Assembly: GCF_014195535.1 (NCBI RefSeq)
Contig: NZ_JACIBY010000022.1
Span: forward strand, 1 to 64,000
Source of the DNA: Runella defluvii
Lineage (GTDB): Bacteria; Bacteroidota; Bacteroidia; Cytophagales; Spirosomataceae
Length of the DNA stretch: 64,000 nt
Reading direction: 5' to 3'
Each line of letters begins with the position of its first letter. The stretch's first letter is position 1. The notes under the pieces were generated by a model, which saw only the letters and a program-made list of their open reading frames with translations, searched no databases and was not told the origin of the DNA. A program made the translations under genes and the position numbers. This document shows positions 51,110 to 64,000 of this stretch, piece after piece.

Positions 51110-51203
51110 TACCTGTTCGGGGTTATTTTATTTACATTTATACATTTTATACCCAATCGGGTACGAATATATAAAATACTTTCGATTTATACCCGAATGG
51201 GTA
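51110..51203. promoter_or_regulatory. Triple operator of the second hipB gene
   Basis: TACCCAATCGGGTA (51150-51163) and TACCCGAATGGGTA (51190-51203) are 5-4-5 palindromes with TACCC/GGGTA arms, spaced 40 bp centre to centre. A third degenerate copy, TACCTGTTCGGGGTTA, starts at 51110, also 40 bp away. Regular spacing suggests cooperative binding of HipB dimers. Confidence 0.7.
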
Positions 51204-51219
51204 CAAACTATTTTCATGC

Positions 51220-51510
51220 CTATTCTAAACAGGGCATGATTCCTAAGTCTCCGCCTTCTTCCCAAAAAAGTGAGCCGTAGTATTCATCCATTGCCAAGGT
51301 GAACAAGGCATCTTTTTCGGCTTCGCTCCAACGTTGCCAGTTTGGGTCTTCGTCCCATTCATCACAAAGTCTGATTTGCCACAAATGCCCTGTTGGGTCG
51401 AAAATCTGATACACATCTGCCGATTGCTGTTGTACTCGAACCAATTGAAATCCCAATGCTTCGGCTCGTCGTTTGGGTGCTTGTTCAATTGGTAATGTTG
51501 TTGTTTCCAT
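51220..51510 (-). CDS. Small hypothetical protein
   Basis: 96 residues, rich in Trp and acidic residues (DPTGHLWQIRLCDEWDEDPN, then WSEAEKDALFTLAMDEYYG). No family recognised. Just upstream is an A/T-rich region with TAGATATTAAAATAGC-like repeats; its stop lies in a CATGCC/GGCATG hairpin. It stands between hipB and the relaxase gene. Confidence 0.5.
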   Translation of the reverse strand: METTTLPIEQAPKRRAEALGFQLVRVQQQSADVYQIFDPTGHLWQIRLCDEWDEDPNWQRWSEAEKDALFTLAMDEYYGSLFWEEGGDLGIMPCLE

Positions 51511-51626: not shown

Positions 51627-52253
51627 TTATCCAAAGCGCACTTTTAGACGTTTAGAATTAATCGTTTCCGTAACATCTTTGGTATCAGCACTTTGCTGTT
51701 CTTTCCAAGTAACTCGCTTCATTTGAGTAGTTGGCGTAAGCTCATAATGTTGCTCCATTTCCCTACAAAAACGACCCATTTCTAAAAAATTGAAGCGAGT
51801 TTTTGCGGTATTTTTTCCGTCTAAACTGATTCTGTTGGCAATGATGTGAAAATGATCATGGTCTTTATCAGCATGACGAAAAGCAACAAGTTGGTTGTTT
51901 TCCATGCCGAAACGCTGTGCAAACAACTGACAAATCTCGGCCATCGTTTCGGTATCAACTTTCTCACCTACTGGAAACGAAAAAGCCTGGTGCCAAACGG
52001 GTTTCTCAATACGACGATTCATACCCGCTGTTCGCTGCATCCGTTCTGCCATTTTTTCGAGATTTAGAAAAATCTCTTTTGCCCCTTGTTCCTGCCTTGA
52101 ATCATTGACTGTCGAAACAGGTACGTGCTGAAAATAGACCAATTCACCCCTTACTTGTGAACGGTCCAAGCTTCGATTGGGGCGAGTGGTGTAATAACAG
52201 TATTCCAGTGTTCCCAAGAAGCTCGTTCCGATAGAGGCTACTTTTCCAATCAT
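51627..52253 (-). CDS. Relaxase (MobA/VirD2-like nuclease domain)
   Basis: 208 residues consisting of just the nuclease domain. Motif III is FRHADKDHDHFHIIANR (three-His metal site) and a tyrosine cluster YCYY near residue 18 supplies the candidate nucleophile. It nicks oriT and leads the strand into the recipient. Shorter than most relaxases, with no helicase or primase extension. ATGA overlap with the MobC-like gene. Confidence 0.85.
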   Translation of the reverse strand: MIGKVASIGTSFLGTLEYCYYTTRPNRSLDRSQVRGELVYFQHVPVSTVNDSRQEQGAKEIFLNLEKMAERMQRTAGMNRRIEKPVWHQAFSFPVGEKVDTETMAEICQLFAQRFGMENNQLVAFRHADKDHDHFHIIANRISLDGKNTAKTRFNFLEMGRFCREMEQHYELTPTTQMKRVTWKEQQSADTKDVTETINSKRLKVRFG

Positions 52254-52684
52254 AAGGTTTCTTCCAGATAGTCATAAGTACGCTGAACGATATTAGATAC
52301 CTGCAAAGCAGTCTGTTTTATCTCCGTTGAAATAGTTTTTTCGTGGCTTACTTTGTGACTCATTTGCAACATCGTTCCTGATAACTTTTCAAGGTTTTTG
52401 AGTAAAGCAAGTACATCCGTCGGTAACGATTGTTGCACAGGGAAGTAGGGCTTATTTTGCATACTGCATTGCCTCAAAAAGTCAGCCCTACTCAGGTTAC
52501 TTGCTTTACTTTGTTTACTCAATAAGTCCCATTCAGCCTCCGTAAATCGTACAGTAAGTCGCCTATTCCTTACTTTCGTTTCGTCTTTTTTAGGGCGGCC
52601 ATTTACTGGAATTTTCGATTTTTTGAGTTTGGATTTTAACCCTTCGTCTGTTTCTTCTACCCTTTTTTTGTCTGCCAAAAACAT
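52250..52684 (-). CDS. MobC-like relaxosome accessory protein
   Basis: 144 residues. Basic N-terminus, RHH-like LTVRFTEAEWDLLSKQSKA, then NLSRADFLRQC and a C-terminal helical part that ends TYDYLEETL. Layout matches MobC (DUF of plasmid mobilization relaxosome proteins), which binds oriT and aids nicking. Upstream 155-bp region to the divergent parA is the expected site of oriT. Confidence 0.8.
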   Translation of the reverse strand: MFLADKKRVEETDEGLKSKLKKSKIPVNGRPKKDETKVRNRRLTVRFTEAEWDLLSKQSKASNLSRADFLRQCSMQNKPYFPVQQSLPTDVLALLKNLEKLSGTMLQMSHKVSHEKTISTEIKQTALQVSNIVQRTYDYLEETL

Positions 52685-52839
52685 AACTTGCTTATTCTGA
52701 TTTTAACCTTTAAAGTTTCCCCTTCATTCCTAAATTCTTTCCTCTTTATCGAACTAATTTCGAGTTATCTCAATTCAAAAACAATATTAAATAAACTATT
52801 TTATTTATTTTAGCAACTTTAATATAATTTACTAAATTT
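52685..52839. other. Intergenic region likely to contain oriT
   Basis: 155 bp between divergent mobC and the TraA-like parA. It includes a small inverted repeat TCGAAC-TAAT-TTCGAG near 52756 and a very A/T-rich half (52790-52835). oriT usually lies beside the mob genes; I cannot identify a nic sequence. Confidence 0.35.
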
Positions 52840-53664
52840 ATGTCGGCTCAAATCATCTGTGTACACACTTCCAAAGGTGGAACAGGAAAATCTACTATCA
52901 CGACCATTTTAGCGTCTTACTTAACTTACGAATTGAGTAAACGGGTCTTGGTGATTGATGCTGATGCTCCGCAGTTTTCTATTGACAGCCTGCGCCATCG
53001 AGAACAAACCATTTACCAAAATATCAGCCAAAAATGTCACGATTTTGATGAGGTCAAAAAAGCTCTTTTTGCCTCTCAGCTTTCAGCAGCCGACCAAGCC
53101 ATTTATGAACGGTATCGCCACAATCAACAACGCAGTATTACTGATTTTTATCCGATTTACACTGTTGAGCAATCGGAATTAGACGAATTGGACATTGAGA
53201 AAATCAGTGACTCCTACGACTTTGTTTTCTTTGATTTGGGTGGTAGGTTTGACGAAAGTATTGTTCGTACACTCCGTTTTGCCGATTTGGTTCTCGTCCC
53301 TTTTACAACGCAAAACATTGATGTGATGGCTTCGCTTGAATATTGTCTAACCTTAGCCGACCATGTGAAGCAAGGACATCTTTCGGACTCAACCCAATTT
53401 CATTGCTTTTGGAACAAATATAAGTTCACGTTTCAGAAAAAAGCCGAACTCATTGAATTGCAATTAAAAACCAAGTTTGCTGCCAAGGGCGTTTCATTTG
53501 ACTTTCTTGAAACTCGATTGAATGATGCCGACACTGGCTTTGACCGTGCCAAGATGTGGACAACCATTTCGTCTCCTATCCTATTCAAAGGCGGTCAGTA
53601 TCTCAATGGTATTGCACGGTTCACCGAGGAAGTTATTAAGCTATCTAATTATCAAAATAGTTAA
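52840..53664 (+). CDS. TraA-like ParA-family ATPase
   Basis: 274 residues. Deviant Walker A TSKGGTGKST, LVIDADAPQFS and FVFFDLGGRFDES. This is the larger ParA-type protein that begins the mobilisation/tra segment in CTnDOT-like elements (TraA position). It has a long helical C-terminal part. Followed 6 nt later by its small partner. Distinct from the ParA at 34.3 kb. Confidence 0.85.
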   Translation: MSAQIICVHTSKGGTGKSTITTILASYLTYELSKRVLVIDADAPQFSIDSLRHREQTIYQNISQKCHDFDEVKKALFASQLSAADQAIYERYRHNQQRSITDFYPIYTVEQSELDELDIEKISDSYDFVFFDLGGRFDESIVRTLRFADLVLVPFTTQNIDVMASLEYCLTLADHVKQGHLSDSTQFHCFWNKYKFTFQKKAELIELQLKTKFAAKGVSFDFLETRLNDADTGFDRAKMWTTISSPILFKGGQYLNGIARFTEEVIKLSNYQNS

Positions 53665-53670
53665 ATATCC

Positions 53671-54054
53671 ATGCCACAACTACCCGAAACCCTCAAAACA
53701 GGATTGTCCAAACAAAAGAAGGCAGAAAGCCAAACCCCTTCTGCCATCTCAGAAATGGACTTTGACGACGAGACCCTCAATCGGCGGGTATCTACTTACC
53801 AAACAAGTATAAAACCCAAGCCTCAGCAGGCAGTAAAGGTAAAATCCGAAAAGGTATTTCACATCGGTCTAAAATTAGATGAGCAATTCCGTTCGGAGTG
53901 GTTACAAATCAAATACTCGTTGGCATTGCGGAATGGTGTGGAGATTTCAATGCAGAAATATGTTGAGTTCCTTCATGCCAAAGCTGTTGAAAAAAGCGAA
54001 TCTGATGATTTTTTAGCAGAAATGGCAGATTATTTTCAAGCTAAAACCCAATGA
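53671..54054 (+). CDS. ParB/TraB-position protein
   Basis: 127 residues: flexible Gln/Ser/Lys-rich N-terminal half, then a C-terminal domain (KVFHIGLKLDEQFRSEWLQIKYSL, in part, and GVEISMQKYVEFLHAKAV) similar in layout to DUF3408/TraB proteins that follow TraA. Probable DNA-binding partner of the upstream ATPase. Confidence 0.6.
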   Translation: MPQLPETLKTGLSKQKKAESQTPSAISEMDFDDETLNRRVSTYQTSIKPKPQQAVKVKSEKVFHIGLKLDEQFRSEWLQIKYSLALRNGVEISMQKYVEFLHAKAVEKSESDDFLAEMADYFQAKTQ

Positions 54055-54533
54055 TGTTACAAATCTCGTTGAGTTTATACTTAGTCGGTGCCATATTGAT
54101 AATTGTAATCTGGGCGGCTCTGCTCTTGGGCTTTTTCAAAGTTTCAAAACGAACTAAGAAAAAAAGACCTACTCCCGAAACCTTCACATTCTTTCAGCCT
54201 AAACAAGGTGGCTCATTCAAAAATACGGATGACTTAATCATTAGTTCACGGTTAGATGACTTAGATACTAAAATAGTTTCCTATCAAAATAGCTTAATAG
54301 GTCAGAAACTAAAACCAGCGGCTCTACCTATTGAAGAACATTCCGAGTTTGCAAGTGATGATTCAGAACAGCATTTTGCGCTATTTTCTAATGAGGAGAT
54401 TCAAGCCTCGGTAAGCCAAGCTCAACAAAACTTGGAAGAAATTATAGCCAAGCGTAAAGAACGAAAAGCTGAGTTATTTGAATTTGAGCAACTATTGGAG
54501 GCCATGGAAGAGGAGAATAAAATAGTTGAGTAG
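54051..54533 (+). CDS. Single-pass membrane protein after parA/traB
   Basis: 160 residues: N-terminal membrane helix (LYLVGAILIIVIWAALLLGFF), basic stop-transfer (KRTKKKRP), then an acidic coiled-coil-like C-terminus (ELFEFEQLLEAMEEENKIVE). Position equals TraD of CTnDOT. Overlaps the previous gene by 4 nt. Confidence 0.6.
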   Translation: MMLQISLSLYLVGAILIIVIWAALLLGFFKVSKRTKKKRPTPETFTFFQPKQGGSFKNTDDLIISSRLDDLDTKIVSYQNSLIGQKLKPAALPIEEHSEFASDDSEQHFALFSNEEIQASVSQAQQNLEEIIAKRKERKAELFEFEQLLEAMEEENKIVE

Positions 54534-54580
54534 TTTTCTATTTAGATATTTTTCTATTTTATTATTCGGTTATTAGCGTT

Positions 54581-54662
54581 TACCCCCTGATTCTCCCTGC
54601 AAAGAGCCTCCTTTTCAGAGGCTCAACCAAATCGCTTGGGGCTTCGATTTGGATTATTTTTT
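54581..54662 (+). terminator. CCCCCTGATT element followed by two hairpins
   Basis: TACCCCCTGATTCTCC (54581-54596), then hairpin GAGCCTC/GAGGCTC (54604-54624), then hairpin CCAAATCG/CGATTTGG (54627-54652) followed by ATTATTTTTT. The second hairpin is a good plus-strand terminator for the parA operon. The first motif belongs to the repeated family described under 56371-56760. Confidence 0.7.
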
Positions 54663-55208
54663 CAATCGAAATAACTGAGCATCGAAACGATACCCGAAGG
54701 AAACAAGCGCATAACTTTTCTCAGCCAGTGATAAAGGACTAACTCGGTAACGAAAACCAATAACAATTGGTCCTTTTTCAGCTTCTACATTTCCCTCAAT
54801 GCCAGCAACAAAGCGGGATTGCTTCCCTTCGACCACAAAGCCTAATACCTGGTACTCGCTGGATTTTTTCTCGTGCCCACCAAAAACGGACAAACCCCAA
54901 AAACCAGACACGCCACTTTGCAATTCAAGGATTTTTTTCCTTATCCCTACACCAGCTAATATTTGACGGGTCGTATTGTCGCCAATCAATTTGGTCGAAT
55001 TGAACCATACTCGTATATCTCGATTAGGGTTTAGATTATCTTTCAATCCTAATCGAAAGCCGTACATATTGCCAGTAGGGTGAAGTCCCAAGCCCACCAT
55101 GGCCTCTGCATTCGATAAAGTAAAGCGTTTAGTTGAATCGGTCTGAGCCTGAATTGTTAAAGAAAAGACCAGAGAAATAACTGTAATTTTGAGTAATAAA
55201 TTTTTCAT
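54654..55208 (-). CDS. TraO-like outer-membrane protein, second copy
   Basis: 184 residues with signal peptide (VISLVFSLTIQAQ). Beta-barrel character; LGLHPTGNMYGFRLGL, VAGIEGNVEAEKGPIVIGFRYRVSPLS and an aromatic last strand (YALVSFGYRFDAQLF). Compare EVEINPIVFGFRQRWNPIS in TraO at 44.9 kb. It is probably a paralogue, perhaps exchanging with TraO. Confidence 0.65.
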   Translation of the reverse strand: MKNLLLKITVISLVFSLTIQAQTDSTKRFTLSNAEAMVGLGLHPTGNMYGFRLGLKDNLNPNRDIRVWFNSTKLIGDNTTRQILAGVGIRKKILELQSGVSGFWGLSVFGGHEKKSSEYQVLGFVVEGKQSRFVAGIEGNVEAEKGPIVIGFRYRVSPLSLAEKSYALVSFGYRFDAQLFRLKK

Positions 55209-55274
55209 TTTGTGATTGATTAATGATGAAACAAAGTGCTAATAACTGCCCCATTTTGAGTAATTAGCTTACTA

Positions 55275-55428
55275 TAAAGATACCTAACTATTTAGATATT
55301 TTTATATTTAACTTGATAATCAAGCATTTACCTTAGACTTCTAACTACCATTCGTTTTAAATTGGATTCTACCCCTTGATTCCCAACCAACGAAAAGCAA
55401 AGCAGTTAAGCCTTACCTTCGTGTTGGT
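55275..55428. repeat. Intergenic element: promoter-like A/T block, CTTCTAACTACC, CCCCTTGATT, hairpin
   Basis: Contains TAAAGATA (55275-55282; TATCTTTA on the minus strand, a candidate -7 box for the gene starting at 55208), TGATAATCA, ACTTCTAACTACCATTCG (55337-55354), TACCCCTTGATTCCC (55370-55384) and an AACCAAC...GTTGGTT hairpin (about 55385-55430). The same order of blocks recurs at 56316-56480 and 57612-57743. Confidence 0.6.
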
Positions 55429-56226
55429 TTACTTTCTTGACGATTTTTTAGAGCTGGATTTTGAAACGATTTGTACCTCCTCAACAGGTATGGGCTCAAC
55501 TACTGGTAATGGTTCGCTTCTAACTTCTTCCTTTGGTGGTTCAATTAAGGGAAGTCCATAAATTAGGTGTTTGGGAAACCAGTCAGATAGGAAGGTAGTA
55601 ACGGTATTTTGAAGGGTAACAACTCCATACACATTGTAGGCTCGTGCCACATCTCGCCCTAACTTCCGAAATCCTAAATCACCTTCTTCAAATTGAAAAG
55701 TTGCGGCAAAGTAGTTGCCTTTTTGCGTTTTTCCATCGGGTAGAGTTATCTCGTAATCCTTCTTTTCGGCTTTTAATACGAACTTTAAGTCTTCAAATTT
55801 CTTACGCTGATAGACTATTTTTTCACGGGCTTCTTTGAAGTTAATAGCGCTCGTGTTGTTAAACATAATCGTGCTGACACACAAATCAGCGTCCAAAAAG
55901 AAGAACTCAACCCACTGTGTACTTTCTTTACGGTCGAATAATCCACCACTGAAAAGCCGCCAAGCAAAAGGTTGAAAAGAAAACTCTGTCCCTAAATCTT
56001 CTTTCCCATCGAGATTGAAACGCCCTGTTTTTCCATCAAAGCGGTATATCTTGGGTCTTCCTTCAATGTAAATGATTTTGGGTTCGAGCGTCTCCTCACC
56101 TGTATCTTCATCTACTAACGTTTCAAATAAATTAGGGAACAATTCTTGAAGTGGTCTTTGCGTACCGTTTACAGTTAGAGCAGTTGAAACTGTGGTAGTT
56201 TCAGGAGAAATTGCAGTTGCTGACAT
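55429..56226 (-). CDS. Hypothetical protein with basic Ser/Lys tail
   Basis: 265 residues. N-terminal Thr/Ser-rich part, a central folded region rich in Phe/Tyr (SFQPFAWRLFSGGLFDRKESTQWVEFFF, in part; NNTSAINFKEAREKIVYQRKK), then a Pro/Glu/Val-rich linker and a tail SKSSSKKSSRK. I recognise no family. Its layout (globular domain, acidic-Pro linker, basic tail) would suit a DNA-associated plasmid protein. It has a good promoter at 56274-56304. Confidence 0.6.
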   Translation of the reverse strand: MSATAISPETTTVSTALTVNGTQRPLQELFPNLFETLVDEDTGEETLEPKIIYIEGRPKIYRFDGKTGRFNLDGKEDLGTEFSFQPFAWRLFSGGLFDRKESTQWVEFFFLDADLCVSTIMFNNTSAINFKEAREKIVYQRKKFEDLKFVLKAEKKDYEITLPDGKTQKGNYFAATFQFEEGDLGFRKLGRDVARAYNVYGVVTLQNTVTTFLSDWFPKHLIYGLPLIEPPKEEVRSEPLPVVEPIPVEEVQIVSKSSSKKSSRK

Positions 56227-56273
56227 GATGAAAATGATTAAAGTGAAAGAATAACTTATCTTTGATTACTTAC

Positions 56274-56304
56274 CAAAAATACGGATTTTAAAGCACAACA
56301 AAAA
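56274..56304 (-). promoter_or_regulatory. Bacteroidota-type promoter for the 265-residue protein gene
   Basis: On the minus strand TTTTTG (56299-56304) and TATTTTTG (56274-56281) are 17 bp apart, matching -33 TTTG and -7 TAnnTTTG. The start codon at 56226 follows 48 bp later. Confidence 0.6.
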
Positions 56305-56370
56305 CAATTCATATCTGATAATCAATTAGTTATAAAACTTCTAACTACCATTTGATTAGACGATTATAGC

Positions 56371-56760
56371 TTTCCCCATGATTGCGCTTAGGTCAAAGAC
56401 TTTCAAGCCAGACAACTGACCTGTGTAGGGGGTTCGTGCGTGTTTGGCTTGAATGTCTTTGGTGTGTTTTGCCTTCAAAATGTGTTCAAAGCGAAGCTGA
56501 ACTTATTTTGAAGGCTTCCCCTTGATTGTGCTTAGGTCAAAGGTTTTCGAATCAGACAAAAGATTTGCGTAGGGGCTTCGTGCATATCTGATTTGAAGGG
56601 CTTTGGTGTGATTTTTCCCCATGATTGCGCTTGGGTCAAAGATTTTCAAGTCAGACAATTGAGTTGAGAAGGGGTTTTGTGCGTGTCTGGCTTGAATGTC
56701 TTTGGTGTGTATTTTGCCTTCAAAATGTGTTTAAAGCAAAGCTGAACTTATTTTGAAGGC
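56371..56760 (+). repeat. Three-copy structured repeat array (about 100 nt each) with two spacer hairpins
   Basis: Copies at ~56371-56470, 56515-56612 and 56613-56713 each begin TTCCCC(A/T)TGATTG(C/T)GCTT and fold into a long stem: copy 1 pairs 56394-56410 with 56445-56461, copy 2 pairs 56538-56556 with 56587-56605. Copies 1 and 3 are followed by an identical-arm hairpin CCTTCAAAAT/ATTTTGAAGG (56472-56514 and 56717-56759). Between copies 1 and 2 two adjacent stem pairs change from G-C,C-G to A-T,T-A, so the fold is conserved. A truncated fourth start, TTCCCCTTGGTTTC, is at 56761. No open frame explains this. Confidence 0.8.
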
Positions 56761-56874
56761 TTCCCCTTGGTTTCTTGACAGCGTACAAGGTTGTGAACTC
56801 ATATCCTTATACGTTTTTTTTTCGTTCTCAAAAAAGCAGCCCAGTATTTTAGTATCAAAATAGAAAAATATCTA

Positions 56875-56906
56875 AATCTGAGATTACAAAAACGCAATCT
56901 CAGATT
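56875..56906 (-). terminator. Hairpin AATCTGAGATT / AATCTCAGATT
   Basis: Perfect 11-bp stem with a 10-nt loop, overlapping the end of a possible 51-codon frame. Likely a transcript end or an inverted-repeat scar between the structured array and the gene at 57104. Confidence 0.45.
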
Positions 56907-57039
56907 CAAAAACCAAAAAGGATAAATCAGGATTGATGTCTGGTACGAACTCAAAATCGGGTGTAACCCTGTGGTTCGCAAGCAGTATTTGTTTCTGATT
57001 AGGAATCACCTTTCCTACGAGTCCTTTTCTGAGAACCAT
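56884..57039 (-). CDS. Possible small ORF (51 codons)
   Basis: MVLRKGLVGKVIPNQKQI... ending FVFESEIAFL-like residues (LVFESEIAFL). It lies between two hairpins (57058-57082 and 56875-56906), i.e. downstream of the terminator of the 160-residue gene. No family recognised and no clear promoter; the composition is protein-like. Low confidence. Confidence 0.25.
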   Translation of the reverse strand: MVLRKGLVGKVIPNQKQILLANHRVTPDFEFVPDINPDLSFLVFESEIAFL

Positions 57040-57057
57040 ATCAATCGTATGACAAAT

Positions 57058-57082
57058 AACAGCCCGACGGTATCGGGCTGTT
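57058..57082 (-). terminator. Terminator-like hairpin after the 160-residue gene
   Basis: AACAGCCCGA / TCGGGCTGTT is a perfect 10-bp stem with a 5-nt loop, 22 nt past the stop of the gene ending at 57104. Confidence 0.65.
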
Positions 57083-57103
57083 TCAGCGTTTGGGCATGAT
57101 GAT

Positions 57104-57586
57104 TTAATCAACGATTTCACGACTATACCCGAATTTTTGAATCTTACTGGCTGGATGAATGGTGAATCTAAAAGTCCCGTCTTCATCATAGAGTTGAACT
57201 GGTGTTTTCGATTTTTCGGCTTTCTGGGCATATTGCTCAATCAACGCCACATCGTCCTTCAAGCGTTTGTAATCAGGCGTTGCCGAATAATCGTAGCGTG
57301 TCGAAGTAGCCTTTCGGGTAAAAGCCAATCCATAAGCAGCAGGAATTTTTTCAGGATAACGATCTAATTCATCTTGCAAAGTTTGAGCGATTTTTTCACG
57401 GGCTTGCTTGGCAATGTACTCAATTCGGTAGAGCCAAGATTCCGCAAGCACAGGATTAACCTCACCACTTTCTACCTTTTCAGCAATGGCAGTGGCAAAT
57501 TCTTCCAGCTTACTTTTGCCGAAGTGAATCAATTCTAATTGGAATTCCTTTTTCAAAAGGGTAGGCACACGTTTTGTTTTTCTCAT
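57104..57586 (-). CDS. Hypothetical helical protein
   Basis: 160 residues. Long helices with charged residues (ESWLYRIEYIAKQAREKIAQ, KDDVALIEQYAQKAEK) and a short C-terminal beta segment (YDEDGTFRFTIHPASKIQKFGYS, in part). The central GLAFTRKATSTRYDYS stretch looks conserved in type but I cannot name the family. It is preceded by TATCTTTA (57612-57619), a candidate -7 box, 26 bp before its ATG. Confidence 0.6.
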   Translation of the reverse strand: MRKTKRVPTLLKKEFQLELIHFGKSKLEEFATAIAEKVESGEVNPVLAESWLYRIEYIAKQAREKIAQTLQDELDRYPEKIPAAYGLAFTRKATSTRYDYSATPDYKRLKDDVALIEQYAQKAEKSKTPVQLYDEDGTFRFTIHPASKIQKFGYSREIVD

Positions 57587-57611
57587 TGGATTTTAGTTTA
57601 TTATCTTGATA

Positions 57612-57743
57612 TAAAGATACTTAAATACTAAAATATCTTTCTCATTATCAGAAAGTTAGTATCAACTTCTAATCACCTATTGTTTTACATTTTTCAATTA
57701 CCCCCTGATTCCCGATTTTAGTAGCTTGTAAAATCAAGCTACT
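57612..57743. repeat. Intergenic element, third full copy of the promoter-motif-hairpin arrangement
   Basis: TAAAGATACTTAAATACTAAAA-type block from 57612, ACTTCTAATCACCTATTG (57665-57682), TACCCCCTGATTCCC (57699-57713) and hairpin AGTAGCTTG/CAAGCTACT (57720-57743) followed by TTTT. Same block order as 55275-55428. Confidence 0.6.
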
Positions 57744-57816
57744 TTTTGAAGTATTAGAAAATCAAGAAAACCTTAATTATTTTCATATTAAGATAGGTAA
57801 ATATTAAAATATCTTA

Positions 57817-58818
57817 TTAGTTAAGATATGCTGTTAGCAAACCATGAAACACCCTTTCATCAGCATAGAATCTGTCTTGCACGCTCATAGAGGTTGGTTG
57901 ATTAAATAGAGAGTGATTCACCGCATTATAAAACAGCCAAACATTGGCGGAGCTTCCCAACAATCCTTGCTCTAATTCCATTCGCTCCAAAGCCGCCGCT
58001 ACTAACTTTTTAGGAATGCCGACTTTTCGTACAATTTCGGTTGCTTCGTCCAAATCTGTTACTTGTAAATCCGTCATTAAGTTGTACACCTGAGAAGTAC
58101 TGCTTTCTTTCTTAGTTTGGGAAAAGTCGCTGACCAAACCCACTAAGAACTGTTGAAACTTGTCTAAGTTAATGCCTTTGTGCGAGAAAATCCGAAGGAA
58201 TTGTTCTTCTTCATTTTTCTCAAATCGTTCTTCGAGCCCTTTTACCTTGGCGTTAGCAGGCATCCCGTTTGTGAGCCAGCGCAAATACTCATCCAATGAA
58301 ATAAACTCGTCGGCCCAACCCATCATTCCGTTTGAGCATATTTGGCGATAATACGAAACTCTCATGACGGCACTTTTCATACCTCGCATTTCATGCCCCT
58401 GAATGGTAAAAGGCGTTTTCCCATTGTAAGAGTTCGTAAAAGTCAATTGTTTCCGAATGGTATCATTCCCAGTTTTACCAATTACCATCGAATCAGGCAG
58501 TACAATCCCAATCGAAAACTCACCTTGTGAGCTGTACCGAATGCTAAGTTCATAATCAAGGCCTAAGCACTCGTCGGCCACGGACTTAATGAGCGAATTA
58601 GGAATCAAAGAGTAGCTTTTGCTCTGGATAGCGAAAACTTGGTTACTACCGTCTGCCTTTTGGCCTACAATCGCTTGTTGGCGGTCAGTCGCTATAATGT
58701 TATAGTTTTCGGGCAAAAGTCCTTCTAAGGCTACGGTTTCAACAGGAAAGCAGATTTTGTCCCAATTCGTAGCATGAGACAATAGATTTTTACTGGCATT
58801 TTTTGATGCTGTTTTCAT
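57817..58818 (-). CDS. DUF932 (plasmid/phage-like) protein
   Basis: 333 residues. The DUF932 pattern is visible: YSLIPNSLIKSVADECLG, LTFTNSYNGKTPFTIQ, and YYRQICSNGMMGWADEF. DUF932 proteins are found on plasmids and phages, often in the leading region that enters the recipient first; function unknown. Normal length. Confidence 0.85.
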   Translation of the reverse strand: MKTASKNASKNLLSHATNWDKICFPVETVALEGLLPENYNIIATDRQQAIVGQKADGSNQVFAIQSKSYSLIPNSLIKSVADECLGLDYELSIRYSSQGEFSIGIVLPDSMVIGKTGNDTIRKQLTFTNSYNGKTPFTIQGHEMRGMKSAVMRVSYYRQICSNGMMGWADEFISLDEYLRWLTNGMPANAKVKGLEERFEKNEEEQFLRIFSHKGINLDKFQQFLVGLVSDFSQTKKESSTSQVYNLMTDLQVTDLDEATEIVRKVGIPKKLVAAALERMELEQGLLGSSANVWLFYNAVNHSLFNQPTSMSVQDRFYADERVFHGLLTAYLN

Positions 58819-58857: not shown

Positions 58858-59695
58858 CGAACGAATGTTGATTGAAAAAAGCACTTAAATATCTAAAAAT
58901 CACTTATTTATCCCTCTGGTTGCGGTTCAAAATTACCCCCGCATCGGCGGTTCGATTTGATTCTCTTGTAAGAATGTATATTCATTCATGTCGAGCAATA
59001 AATAATTTTGTTTATTTTATCAATTTAAAGTATCTTTATCTTTAAAGTCAATACAAAAACTAAACTTTTAGTTTTTGTGACATCCTTTTAATAAATTTTT
59101 CTTTTCCCCATTGATTCAAAAAATAAAAGAACAAAAATCAAAAATATCTTTTTTATATAGTTTTTTAAGGAAGGTTTTTAAATGCTTTTATATAATAGTT
59201 TTTTAGAAGTCCTAAAAGTGGCTGTAATTGCCTGATTTTTAATAGTTTATAAAACATAGAATGTATATCCATTCATGTATAAATGTATATTGAGTCATGT
59301 ATAAATGTATATCCATTCATGTGAAAATGTATATTGAGTCATGTATAAATGTATATCCATTCATGTATAAACCCCAAACGGATAAAATGTATATTCATTC
59401 ATGTGTGGATAAGTAGTTATTGATCTGATAAACAAATAGTTAAATTAAATTTATTGTTGATAACTCAGGATAAAATGTATATCCATTCATGTAAAACTGC
59501 CGTGACCAACTCCAAAAAATGAATACTGGTGTGAGGTAATATACATTTTTGGCGATAATGTATATCCGTTCATTACTGAATAATGGTTAATTGACTGATA
59601 ATCAATATACTTATAAAGTAACAATGTAAATGTATTTTGAGTGTATTTACTTTTTTTCTATGTTTGCTTGAATTCTAAATCCAATCATACTCGTA
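58858..59695. other. Iteron origin of replication (oriV)
   Basis: Eight copies of a 17-bp iteron of form ATGTATATYCATTCATG or ATGTATATTGAGTCATG: 58974, 59261, 59283, 59305, 59327, 59349, 59387 and 59475 (start positions), with a degenerate ninth at 59558. Five of them, 59261 to 59365, are in exact 22-bp register and alternate between the two types. A consensus DnaA box TGTGGATAA is at 59404-59412 and a near match TGTTGATAA at 59455-59463, with A/T-rich DNA between and after. A CCCCATTGATT motif sits at 59107. The Rep gene starts at 59696. Confidence 0.92.
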
Positions 59696-60886
59696 ATGGC
59701 AAAGAAGACCAATTCAGAATACATTGAAGACTTGCAGAATAATTCCGATGTGGTCATTCTGAATAACCCCATTGCAACGCCCACCTTTATACGTCAGTTG
59801 TCGAAAAGCAAAAAAGCGGAGATTAACGAAGTATATACTCCAAAGTTATTCTACGAAATTGCTTCACGCCTAAAACCCTCCGACTTAGAAAACCTAAGCC
59901 GCAATACAAACATTGTACTAACACTCGAAATTAAAGACTTCTTAAAAAGTATCCAAACTACCAATACATCGGGCTATTCGTATTTGATTGACTCGATTAA
60001 AATGCTTCAAACTACGCTTGTAGAATGGATAGAAGGTCGAGAGACCATCATCGTACCGATTATTTCACAGAGTGTACATAAGCACGATTCAGGGAAGATA
60101 GACCTATACATCTCGCATGACTTAGCCAAACAGATTTTGCAAGTAAAAGAAACCGAGAATTTTAGTTTCTTCAAGAAGAACGTATTTGCGCTACAAACTA
60201 CTCGGTCTATCAAGCTATTTCCTTTTTTTAGTAGTTGGAAGAATTATGGTCGCCCCATTGACGTAGATTTGAAGTCATTCAAGGAAAAATTGGGCTTCAA
60301 TAAAGCAGTTTATTCACGTTTTTCGTCTTTAAAGAAGCACGTCATTGACCCAGCCATTCACGAGATAAACGAGAAAACGGACTTGTTTGTAAAATATGAA
60401 CTACTTGGTAATAATTTAGAATCAAAAAAACCACGAGTAACAGGCATACGGTTTTGGGTGTGGGAAAAGAAAAACGTGAAGATCCTGGAAGAGAAGAAAG
60501 CCAAGCAGGGTAGGGGAGAAGCCATCGTGGACGTGGACAAATACATTGAGCAAGTAACAGCCGACTATAAAACTCGGCTACGAAAACACGCCGATGAATT
60601 TTATGACCGCCTCTTGGGTAATGCAGCCAATAAGATTCATTATGGAGAATTAGTTGCCAAATTCCAAGGCACAGCCTTAGTCAATCAGTTCAATATGATA
60701 ACTGATGTAGAATGGATGATGAAAGAATTCTTCCGTATGTTTCCCTACCATGCTGAATCATTACGCTCACTCTCTGCTATTCGCTCGCACATTGAAGTTA
60801 CGGAACAAGAATCTAAACAACGAGGATTTTTGCTATACTTTGAATTAGACGAGGGATTTGGGTTGAAAGTGACAAAGGCAATATAG
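59696..60886 (+). CDS. rep: Rep_3-family replication initiator
   Basis: 396 residues. Two winged-helix units typical of RepB/RepE initiators: FFKKNVFALQTTRSIKLFPFFSSW and PIDVDLKSFKEKLGFN with FSSLKKHVIDPAIHEINEKTDL in parts. It should bind the adjacent iterons to open oriV and also limit copy number. Located directly downstream of the iteron array, on the plus strand. The C-terminal ~110 residues extend past the usual domain. Confidence 0.9.
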   Translation: MAKKTNSEYIEDLQNNSDVVILNNPIATPTFIRQLSKSKKAEINEVYTPKLFYEIASRLKPSDLENLSRNTNIVLTLEIKDFLKSIQTTNTSGYSYLIDSIKMLQTTLVEWIEGRETIIVPIISQSVHKHDSGKIDLYISHDLAKQILQVKETENFSFFKKNVFALQTTRSIKLFPFFSSWKNYGRPIDVDLKSFKEKLGFNKAVYSRFSSLKKHVIDPAIHEINEKTDLFVKYELLGNNLESKKPRVTGIRFWVWEKKNVKILEEKKAKQGRGEAIVDVDKYIEQVTADYKTRLRKHADEFYDRLLGNAANKIHYGELVAKFQGTALVNQFNMITDVEWMMKEFFRMFPYHAESLRSLSAIRSHIEVTEQESKQRGFLLYFELDEGFGLKVTKAI

Positions 60887-63212: not shown

Positions 63213-63422
63213 ATGGAAACCTTACAATTCAAAACCAATATCAATTGCGGCGGGTGCGTGGCAAAAGTGACTCCCTTTCTGAATCAACTGGAAGAAGTAG
63301 AAAACTGGAAAGTAGATACTGCCAATCCTGATAAAATCCTGACAGTAGTGGGTGAAGACCTGACTTGCGAACTCGTAGAAACGACGGTTAAACAAGCTGG
63401 ATTTGAGATTGAACTCGTCTAA
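63213..63422 (+). CDS. copZ: CopZ-like copper chaperone
   Basis: 69 residues, ferredoxin-like HMA domain with metal motif NCGGCVAKV (CxxC). Lies 21 nt after copA and is followed by a strong bidirectional terminator. It would deliver Cu(I) to CopA. Confidence 0.85.
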   Translation: METLQFKTNINCGGCVAKVTPFLNQLEEVENWKVDTANPDKILTVVGEDLTCELVETTVKQAGFEIELV

Positions 63423-63463
63423 AAACTACAAGAGGGCTGATTATTAGCCCTCTTGTAGTTTTT
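63421..63463. terminator. Bidirectional intrinsic terminator
   Basis: Perfect 18-bp stem: arms AAAAACTACAAGAGGGCT and AGCCCTCTTGTAGTTTTT around a 7-nt loop, between the converging copZ and redoxin genes. A/T runs on both sides allow termination in both directions. Confidence 0.9.
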
Positions 63464-63482
63464 AGATATTTTGAGAATTGTC

Positions 63483-64000
63483 CTATTTTCGATAAGTGAT
63501 TACACATCCTTTGGCGGTAGTGGTAGTCACTTTTATTTCTTCTTTTGCCAAAATGGATGCAATTGCTGTTTCGATGTACTTCTCGGTAATTTTACTTTCG
63601 TCCCTATTATCATCAATTGCACCAATATAAACGATTTTGTAACCATCTTTTTCTTTTACCAAAATGCATGTATGCGTATTGACGATTGCACCATAAGAAA
63701 ACGAGGTTTTTTGATTAGCATCATGCAAATAATAGAAATTAAAGCCTTTTTCTGAGGCAACTTTTTTCATATCTTCCATCGAATCGGCGGGGTCAACGGC
63801 TACCACAACAAAACCCAACTTACTATATTTTTCCTGTAATGCCTTCACCCGATTTTGATACATTTTGGCAATAGGGCAATTGTTGGTAAGGAATGTTAGG
63901 ATAATGCCTTTTGAGTTTTTAAAACTGTTCATTGAAATGGTTTCACCATTGACGTTTTTCAACTCAAAAGCAATCGCTTTACTATTCAAAAATGGGGCAG
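63483..64000 (-). CDS. Thioredoxin-fold redoxin / AhpC-TSA-like protein (partial, N-terminus outside window)
   Basis: 172 codons to the window edge; the frame is open beyond it (APFLNSKAIAFELKNVNGE reads through), so the annotated ORF start is internal. ILTFLTNNCPIAKMYQNRVKAL has the redox Cys in NNCP, followed by VVAVDPADSMEDM and SYGAIVNTHTCILVKEKDG. This is the redoxin/alkyl hydroperoxide reductase-like family with a single conserved Cys. Thiol redox role inferred. Confidence 0.75.
   Translation of the reverse strand, partial: APFLNSKAIAFELKNVNGETISMNSFKNSKGIILTFLTNNCPIAKMYQNRVKALQEKYSKLGFVVVAVDPADSMEDMKKVASEKGFNFYYLHDANQKTSFSYGAIVNTHTCILVKEKDGYKIVYIGAIDDNRDESKITEKYIETAIASILAKEEIKVTTTTAKGCVITYRK

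Follow-up and report, generated by a model that had tools for sequence, protein, structure and literature searches.

A tandem array of conserved hairpin repeats, possibly encoding a structured RNA, associated with transfer genes in a Runella plasmid lineage

The window analysed here (64,000 nucleotides of Runella defluvii, NZ_JACIBY010000022.1, positions 1 to 64,000) comes from a plasmid that is very like pRUNSL02 of Runella slithyformis DSM 19594. The latter plasmid, from a freshwater bacterium, has been completely sequenced and typed as conjugative, and an excerpt of one published report mentions it for copper resistance and size (PMC4224046). The array lies between the gene of a 265-aa protein (55429–56226, minus strand) and the next minus-strand genes. 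Further to the left are the genes of a MOBP-type relaxase (51627–52253, minus strand) and of a NikA-like mobilization protein (52250–52684, minus strand; PF21983, E 1.3e-11). The start of nikA and the adjoining gap (52661–52755), 96% identical in three relatives, form a candidate oriT, which holds TTTCCCCTTCATT in the window, L067 and L068 and not in L007. To the right of the array, a hairpin followed by nine T (56780–56822, plus strand) resembles a terminator, and a Rep gene stands at 59696, with iteron-like ATGTATATCCATTCATG repeats (59260–59580) upstream of it. By RNA folding, the most stable 100-nt segments for their G+C content in the whole window are found elsewhere, at 63361–63520 and 51121–51240.

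The 265-aa protein belongs to a widespread family, present in 85 of the 222 genomes of Spirosomataceae, that has no Pfam assignment and no sequence match better than E 0.36. Its predicted structure (mean pLDDT 81) retrieves mostly single-strand binding proteins as top PDB matches, at E 0.013 or worse and low TM, and unnamed phage proteins from BFVD at E 7.5e-7; the likeness to single-strand binding proteins is thus best taken as a lead from structure modelling. Among 36 loci scanned upstream of its homologues, some of them the plasmids themselves and seven inspected by eye, no clear counterpart hairpins were found. Strong folds near these homologues fall mostly inside other reading frames, and the gap at L023 contains hairpins.

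A repeat search of the window finds a repeat of 100 nt in register at 56371, 56515 and 56614, the latter two copies being 78% and 88% identical to the first, in agreement with the three-copy structured repeat of about 100 nt described in a first-pass annotation of this DNA. Each of these A units is 99 nt long and all align without gaps; the TTCCCC which that annotation saw at the start of each copy is present, but the true starts, at 56372, 56516 and 56615, lie one or two bases further right. A second, two-copy family, which contains GCCTTCAAAAT.../...ATTTTGAAGGC, at 56471–56515 and 56716–56760 comprises the 45-nt B hairpins, and these are the separate hairpin that copies 1 and 3 had been said to share. 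In plus-strand orientation, which is a leaning rather than a certainty, the order is A1 (56372–56470, defined by repeat search, alignment and fold), B1 (56471–56515, apical GCGAAGC), A2 (56516–56614, with no B behind it), A3 (56615–56713) and B2 (56716–56760, apical GCAAAGC), followed by a fourth TTCCCC.

Homologues on other Bacteroidota plasmids had been proposed as material for comparison; alignable relatives do exist, but they were found in one Runella plasmid lineage only, a far narrower range. Three A units occur in Runella sp. MFBS21 (L009/L067), in the same order as in the window plasmid, while one unit occurs in pRUNSL02, a close DNA relative, and in R. zeae DSM 19591 (L010/L068), and one decaying unit in Runella sp. 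CRIBMP (L012/L069). A further contig with a single decaying unit, L064 (JAIXUT010000150.1), is filed under an alphaproteobacterial MAG; as it matches the CRIBMP plasmid at 98% identity across the 8 kb examined, it is probably misbinned. A model of the A-B unit matches five of the 222 genomes of the family at E 0.01, all of them Runella; an exact pattern run over all genome contigs gives four stretches, and among 72,556 plasmid records the single match is pRUNSL02. A phage search gave no match, and the exact patterns gave 0 and 0 hits in IMG/VR. Weak matches in other genomes (L013–L016), which come without the rest of the unit, were dismissed as chance.

The units follow the relaxase. The Rep of this plasmid is present in 7 of 13 Runella genomes; a close relaxase (84–100% identical) accompanies it in four of the seven, and all four carry one or three intact units. 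The remaining three comprise one genome in which a decaying unit adjoins a broken 265-aa gene and two without any unit; one further Runella genome, without this Rep, has relaxase matches of only 30%. The genome with the decaying unit is that of Runella sp. CRIBMP, in which no relaxase is matched at E 1e-8. On its plasmid (L069, 8286–12943) Rep is intact, only the end of ParA is matched and the 265-aa gene is broken. The possibility that the array represents the iterons of Rep was discarded, given that iteron-like repeats stand elsewhere and that the Rep-bearing G009 (R. rosea, coordinates as NZ_CP030852) and G012 are without the array.

Among the window plasmid, pRUNSL02 and the MFBS21 and R. 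zeae plasmids, B1 is 98.5% and B2 94.8% identical, whole A units are 82–88% identical and, within A3, the 3' arm (98.4%) exceeds the 5' arm (88.9%) and the loop (79.5%), although these figures partly compare paralogous units. Over the same plasmids, identity is 69.6% at the fourfold sites of nine genes and 72.8% in the spacer to the right of the array. These values indicate, at the level of sequence comparison, that purifying selection acts on the units in the intact plasmids. Conservation by itself does not single out the array, since the block has other conserved gaps (81–93%); what sets it apart is the conservation of stem over loop. When the decaying CRIBMP plasmid is compared with its intact relatives, A is 80–85% identical, B 86–89%, the broken 265-aa gene 79–80% and the spacer 82%; by these identities A decays there at about the background rate and B slightly more slowly.

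The A consensus folds, on the plus strand, into P0 (columns 13–16/91–94), a bulge, P1, an internal loop and a small apical P2 (54–57/61–64). P1 has 20 pairs and one internal mismatch in columns 23–43/70–90, the mismatch lying at 30/83 in the alignment and at 28/85 in A2 units. The corresponding helices of A1 are P0 56384–56387/56462–56465, P1 56394–56414/56441–56461 and P2 56425–56428/56432–56435. B forms a 12-pair stem with an inner hairpin tipped GCGAAGC or GCAAAGC in six of the seven B copies and GCGAAGT in L012. Folded as plus-strand RNA and compared with dinucleotide shuffles, A copies 1 and 3 score z −4.0 and −3.2 and the B hairpins z −6.5 and −5.6; copy 2 alone, at z −0.9, hardly beats its shuffles, 36 of 200 of which fold equally well.

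In an alignment of nine A units from five plasmids, 95.2% of the cells paired in the consensus are indeed paired, compared with at most 50% in controls in which the fold was slid along the alignment. The gapless alignment agrees with the annotation on two adjacent compensatory pairs: 36/77 and 37/76 are G-C,C-G in copy 1 and A-U,U-A in copy 2, with copy 3 (G-C,U-G) as a wobble intermediate. In total, five A pairs show two-sided change, a number attained by 12 of 500 shuffles, which average 2.4, and by none of the slid versions, which have 0 to 2. The changes fall at 36/77 and 37/76 jointly in the ancestor of A2, at 40/73 in L009A1, at 13/94 in L009A2 and at 55/63 in A3 of the window. The change of copy 2 is also present in the homologous middle copy of another plasmid (L009), which makes it one inherited event; in this alignment the two-sided changes are few as independent events and partly inherited. 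The covariation test that had been called for in a wider alignment exceeds shuffled and slid controls on the nine A units; restricted to the seven A+B rows, it does not exceed shuffles, 59 of 500 of which reach the observed level. The contention that compensatory change implies selection for the fold is upheld by the conserved fold, by two-sided changes in excess of controls and by purifying selection in the intact plasmids. Taken together, these observations establish the A-B element as real, selected, able to fold when single-stranded and associated with the transfer module in a single lineage of Runella plasmids.

The pattern of wobble pairs leans towards the plus strand as the one that folds. 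Read on this strand, P1 has G-U in 13 cells and A-C in 3 (6 and 3 pairs), or 12 and 1 cells (5 and 1 pairs) without the decaying L012, pair counts that by themselves are not significant. Over all helices (P0, P1, P2 and B) there are 45 wobble and 5 A-C cells (17 and 5 pairs, one-sided binomial 0.008), in a set whose P0 and P2 were chosen from plus-strand folds. The scores against shuffles do not separate the strands: the three A copies of the window give z −4.0, −0.9 and −3.2 on the plus strand and −3.7, −1.9 and −4.5 on the minus strand as RNA, and over all units the shuffle-corrected scores favour the plus strand for 5 of 9 A and 4 of 7 B units under RNA parameters and for 7 of 9 A and 1 of 7 B units under DNA parameters. 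Raw energies are lower on the plus strand for all nine A units folded as RNA and for eight of the nine folded as DNA, but they track the G+T content of that strand (59–67%) and were rejected as strand evidence; the minus-strand preference of three neighbouring hairpins was rejected as a strand control for the same reason.

A minus-strand RNA, either a structured leader or a free RNA read leftwards to the 265-aa gene, would fit the adjoining genes, which are read from the minus strand, and the shuffle-corrected RNA folds, which are as strong on this strand as on the other. We nevertheless consider it very unlikely, the least probable of the readings, as the wobble counts lean the other way and the transcriptional signals are placed against it. 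The Bacteroidota −7 promoter consensus is TAnnTTTG, and a 6/6 match to it, TATTTTTG (56274–56281, minus strand), probably serves the 265-aa gene as an ordinary promoter; for a minus-strand transcript, this site would be downstream of the array. It reads TA(T/C)TTTTG in all four intact plasmids and is changed in L069 and L064. In addition, terminator-like sites at 56871–56910 and 57058–57082 close the previous minus-strand genes.

On the plus strand, a −7-like element, TAGCTTTC (56367–56374), matches the consensus at 5 of 6 positions at the left edge of the array, without a −33 element at the usual distance. TA..TTTC is kept there in all six carriers (two of them nearly identical), variation being confined to the two n positions, and in none of the six is a −33 element found at the usual spacing. 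The T run of the terminator-like hairpin is present in two of the six (the window and L007; not L067, L068, L069 or L064), and the spacer that contains this hairpin changes at a rate close to neutral.

The left edge of the array also overlaps a module of about 85 nt (56304–56386, plus strand), the right end of which is TTWCCCCNTGATT, as at the starts of the A units. With the layout TGATAATCA...AACTTCTAACTACC...TTACCCCYTGATT, the module has a second copy at 55301–55384 and a third at 57629–57713 (both plus strand), the gaps before the 184-aa and 160-aa genes also containing it, so that it stands upstream of three minus-strand genes; judged from sequence, it looks like a shared upstream control region of these genes. 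TTWCCCCNTGATT occurs four times in the window, always on the plus strand in gaps of one block, as against 3 to 8 times elsewhere in each of eight Runella genomes; exact sites number 3, 5 and 3 on pRUNSL02 and the plasmids of MFBS21 and R. zeae, where they keep to one strand, and they are few elsewhere in those genomes. When one mismatch is allowed, TTYCCCYNTKATT has ten matches in the window, seven of them on the plus strand in gaps of one 6.4-kb block (52716, 54580, 56371, 56515, 56614, 57698 and 59104) and three outside it (two plus, one minus). The module is not claimed for the rest of the Spirosomataceae: although 101 of the 222 genomes reach E 0.05, matches outside the carriers lie in A+T-rich DNA and are E 1.8e-4 at best. 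A few of these genomes share TGATAATCA...AGTTA, fragments that appear related to the module.

The array could accordingly be regarded as the far end of the upstream region of the 265-aa gene, acting as double-stranded DNA, with the module and TTWCCCCNTGATT as operators of several minus-strand genes. The repetition of the module before three such genes and the confinement of TTWCCCCNTGATT to one strand and to the gaps of one block are what this proposal explains well. It accounts for the module and not for hairpins with compensatory changes, and among the gaps that share the module the A-B hairpins are present only in that before the 265-aa gene; moreover, the motif copy at 54580 sits between convergent genes, upstream of no minus-strand gene. 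We therefore regard it as improbable.

Another property of the A units is a plus-strand reading frame. The annotation had seen no coding potential, and indeed the ORF list has no frame of at least 60 aa overlapping the array; however, six intact units (A1, A3 or single) have an uninterrupted frame of 43–47 aa that starts at the TTG of column 11, and in A1 it extends for 47 aa through B1 (56382–56525, plus strand), a possible small coding sequence with an excess of synonymous change in its A part. In these six units, third positions vary at 13 of 29 sites and other positions at 8 of 60, a difference that is seen among paired positions (8/21 and 3/35) and among unpaired ones (5/8 and 5/25). The synonymous share is 0.57, where 0.27 is expected with the structure class kept, and it is reached by none of 2,000 replicates; with all nine A units, 58 of 2,000 reach the observed share. 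The test was devised after the fact, and because third positions of P1 face third positions, structure alone may mimic part of the coding signal. No excess is found in the A2 pair, in which the compensatory change makes an in-frame stop, or in L012, which has stops.

An A unit might thus be the gene of a small protein of about 30–50 aa with a TTG start and a folding mRNA, the middle copies being pseudogenes kept by structure or by recent origin. The open frame and the third-position excess in six units speak for this, but the sole start available is a TTG directly behind an in-frame TGA, the most conserved part, B, has no synonymous excess, a 2-base insertion shifts the frame between A3 and B2, and the L011–L010 pair alone has one synonymous and three non-synonymous changes. 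Pfam, NCBIfam and PHROGs contain no family for the product (E 0.08 and 0.27 for the best weak matches), no other plasmid of note turned up, and the only matches in 394 other genomes of the phylum are at E 0.005 or worse. This explanation is in our opinion unlikely, and the synonymous excess in the plus frame points, in any case, to a plus-strand transcript.

The association with the relaxase raises a more interesting alternative, in which the plus strand is the transferred DNA strand and the hairpins form on entry into the recipient. There, much like Frpo/ssi elements, they would recruit RNA polymerase or a priming system to produce a leftward RNA for the minus-strand block, or to start second-strand synthesis. 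The array would be a control element of single-stranded DNA, unrelated in sequence to Frpo, adapted to the Bacteroidota type of promoter and tandemly amplified, serving as promoter or priming site before the second strand is made. The operon of relaxase and NikA reads left from the conserved gap at 52661–52755. The relaxase gene typically enters the recipient last (PMC11541004), and with relaxase and NikA to the left of the gap, the right side would lead and the plus strand would be the one transferred. The genes of 54654–58818, read from the minus strand, would then use the transferred strand as template. Intact units in four of four Runella genomes with both Rep and the close relaxase, as against none of three with Rep only, and the near-background decay of the A unit in L069 agree with such a role. 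Conservation is among the highest in the 3' arm, which would serve as the non-template strand. Folded as DNA, the plus strand of the window A copies beats its shuffles (z −4.5, −2.1 and −4.1) and outscores the minus strand in 7 of 9 A units; the tip of B, GCGAAGC, is a known stable DNA mini-hairpin.

Several observations weigh against this alternative. The stem has no −33 element, and −7-like matches (5/6) to TGTCTTTG or TGTTTTTG occur in only 7 of 9 units, such matches being common (27 in 1,582 bases). The 265-aa gene has its own conserved likely promoter, the three genes nearest to the candidate oriT (52840–54533) read the opposite way, and with DNA parameters B folds relatively better on the minus strand in 6 of 7 copies. 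The stability gap between wobble and A-C pairs is larger in RNA than in DNA, and the lean towards wobble suits RNA better. Finally, all the evidence linked to transfer would hold equally for an RNA of the transfer module. A role as single-stranded DNA is, to our mind, doubtful, if less so than the alternatives above.

The best reading, which we put forward tentatively on the strength of sequence comparison, is that the array encodes a plus-strand structured RNA of the plasmid's transfer module. RNA is modestly favoured on account of the preference for wobble over A-C, the likely separate promoter of the 265-aa gene and the third-position signal, which implies a plus-strand transcript. Transcription would begin near 56378, at the TAnnTTTC element, and proceed rightwards, yielding one or three A units with their B hairpins; the folded products would be a bulged hairpin of 82 nt per A unit and a hairpin of 45 nt per B, and the RNA might carry a short reading frame too. 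Its most likely function would be to bind and titrate a protein. This is proposed on the grounds that conservation is found in the stems and one arm, that variation is greatest in the A loop and that the unpaired pieces tested have no complementarity to gene starts above chance: the 5' tail and A loop of two plasmids, compared with 57 and 16 ORF starts, give best duplexes at most 0.1 kcal/mol beyond the shuffled mean best. Tandem duplication would then add binding sites.

The annotation's remark that no known RNA family fits is confirmed by Rfam 15, which gives no match at the curated gathering score in the window and weak ones of E 1.1 or worse in this region; a tRNA and tmRNA search found none, and no structured element of this kind on Bacteroidota plasmids is described among the literature matches listed. 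The titrating RNAs CsrB and RsmZ resemble the array in having several similar hairpins per (here presumed) RNA and a copy number that varies among relatives. They differ in their GGA motifs, which the alignments show in no consensus loop of A or B and, among A units, only in L009A2 and, outside the loop, in L012; an RNA of that type was therefore rejected. The ToxI arrays of type III toxin-antitoxin systems are likewise tandem structured repeats on plasmids, but their units measure about 36 nt and those described here about 100 nt, and such a system was discarded as no annotated or conserved plus-strand gene follows the array before Rep at 59696. FinP of F-type plasmids is also a two-hairpin plasmid RNA opposite a neighbouring gene, whereas the presumed array RNA overlaps neither the likely promoter nor the start of the 265-aa gene.

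The array is small, offers natural variants with one and three copies and tracks the relaxase. If it acts as RNA, it represents a plasmid RNA that is absent from Rfam and has its dosage altered through tandem duplication; should it instead act on the transferred strand, single-stranded promoters would extend to Bacteroidota. The systems to be compared in the latter case are the Frpo/ssi elements, which are repeated hairpins in non-coding gaps, required in F for early gene expression (PMC9849209, PMC11541004). The array differs from them in the lack of a recognisable −10/−35 pair in the stem, in its tandem and not dispersed units, in the likely ordinary promoter of its downstream gene and in its Bacteroidota host, which has a different promoter consensus. 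What it has in common with the elements of F and ColIb-P9 is the arrangement itself: repeated non-coding hairpins in a presumed leading region, among genes oriented for transcription from the transferred strand.
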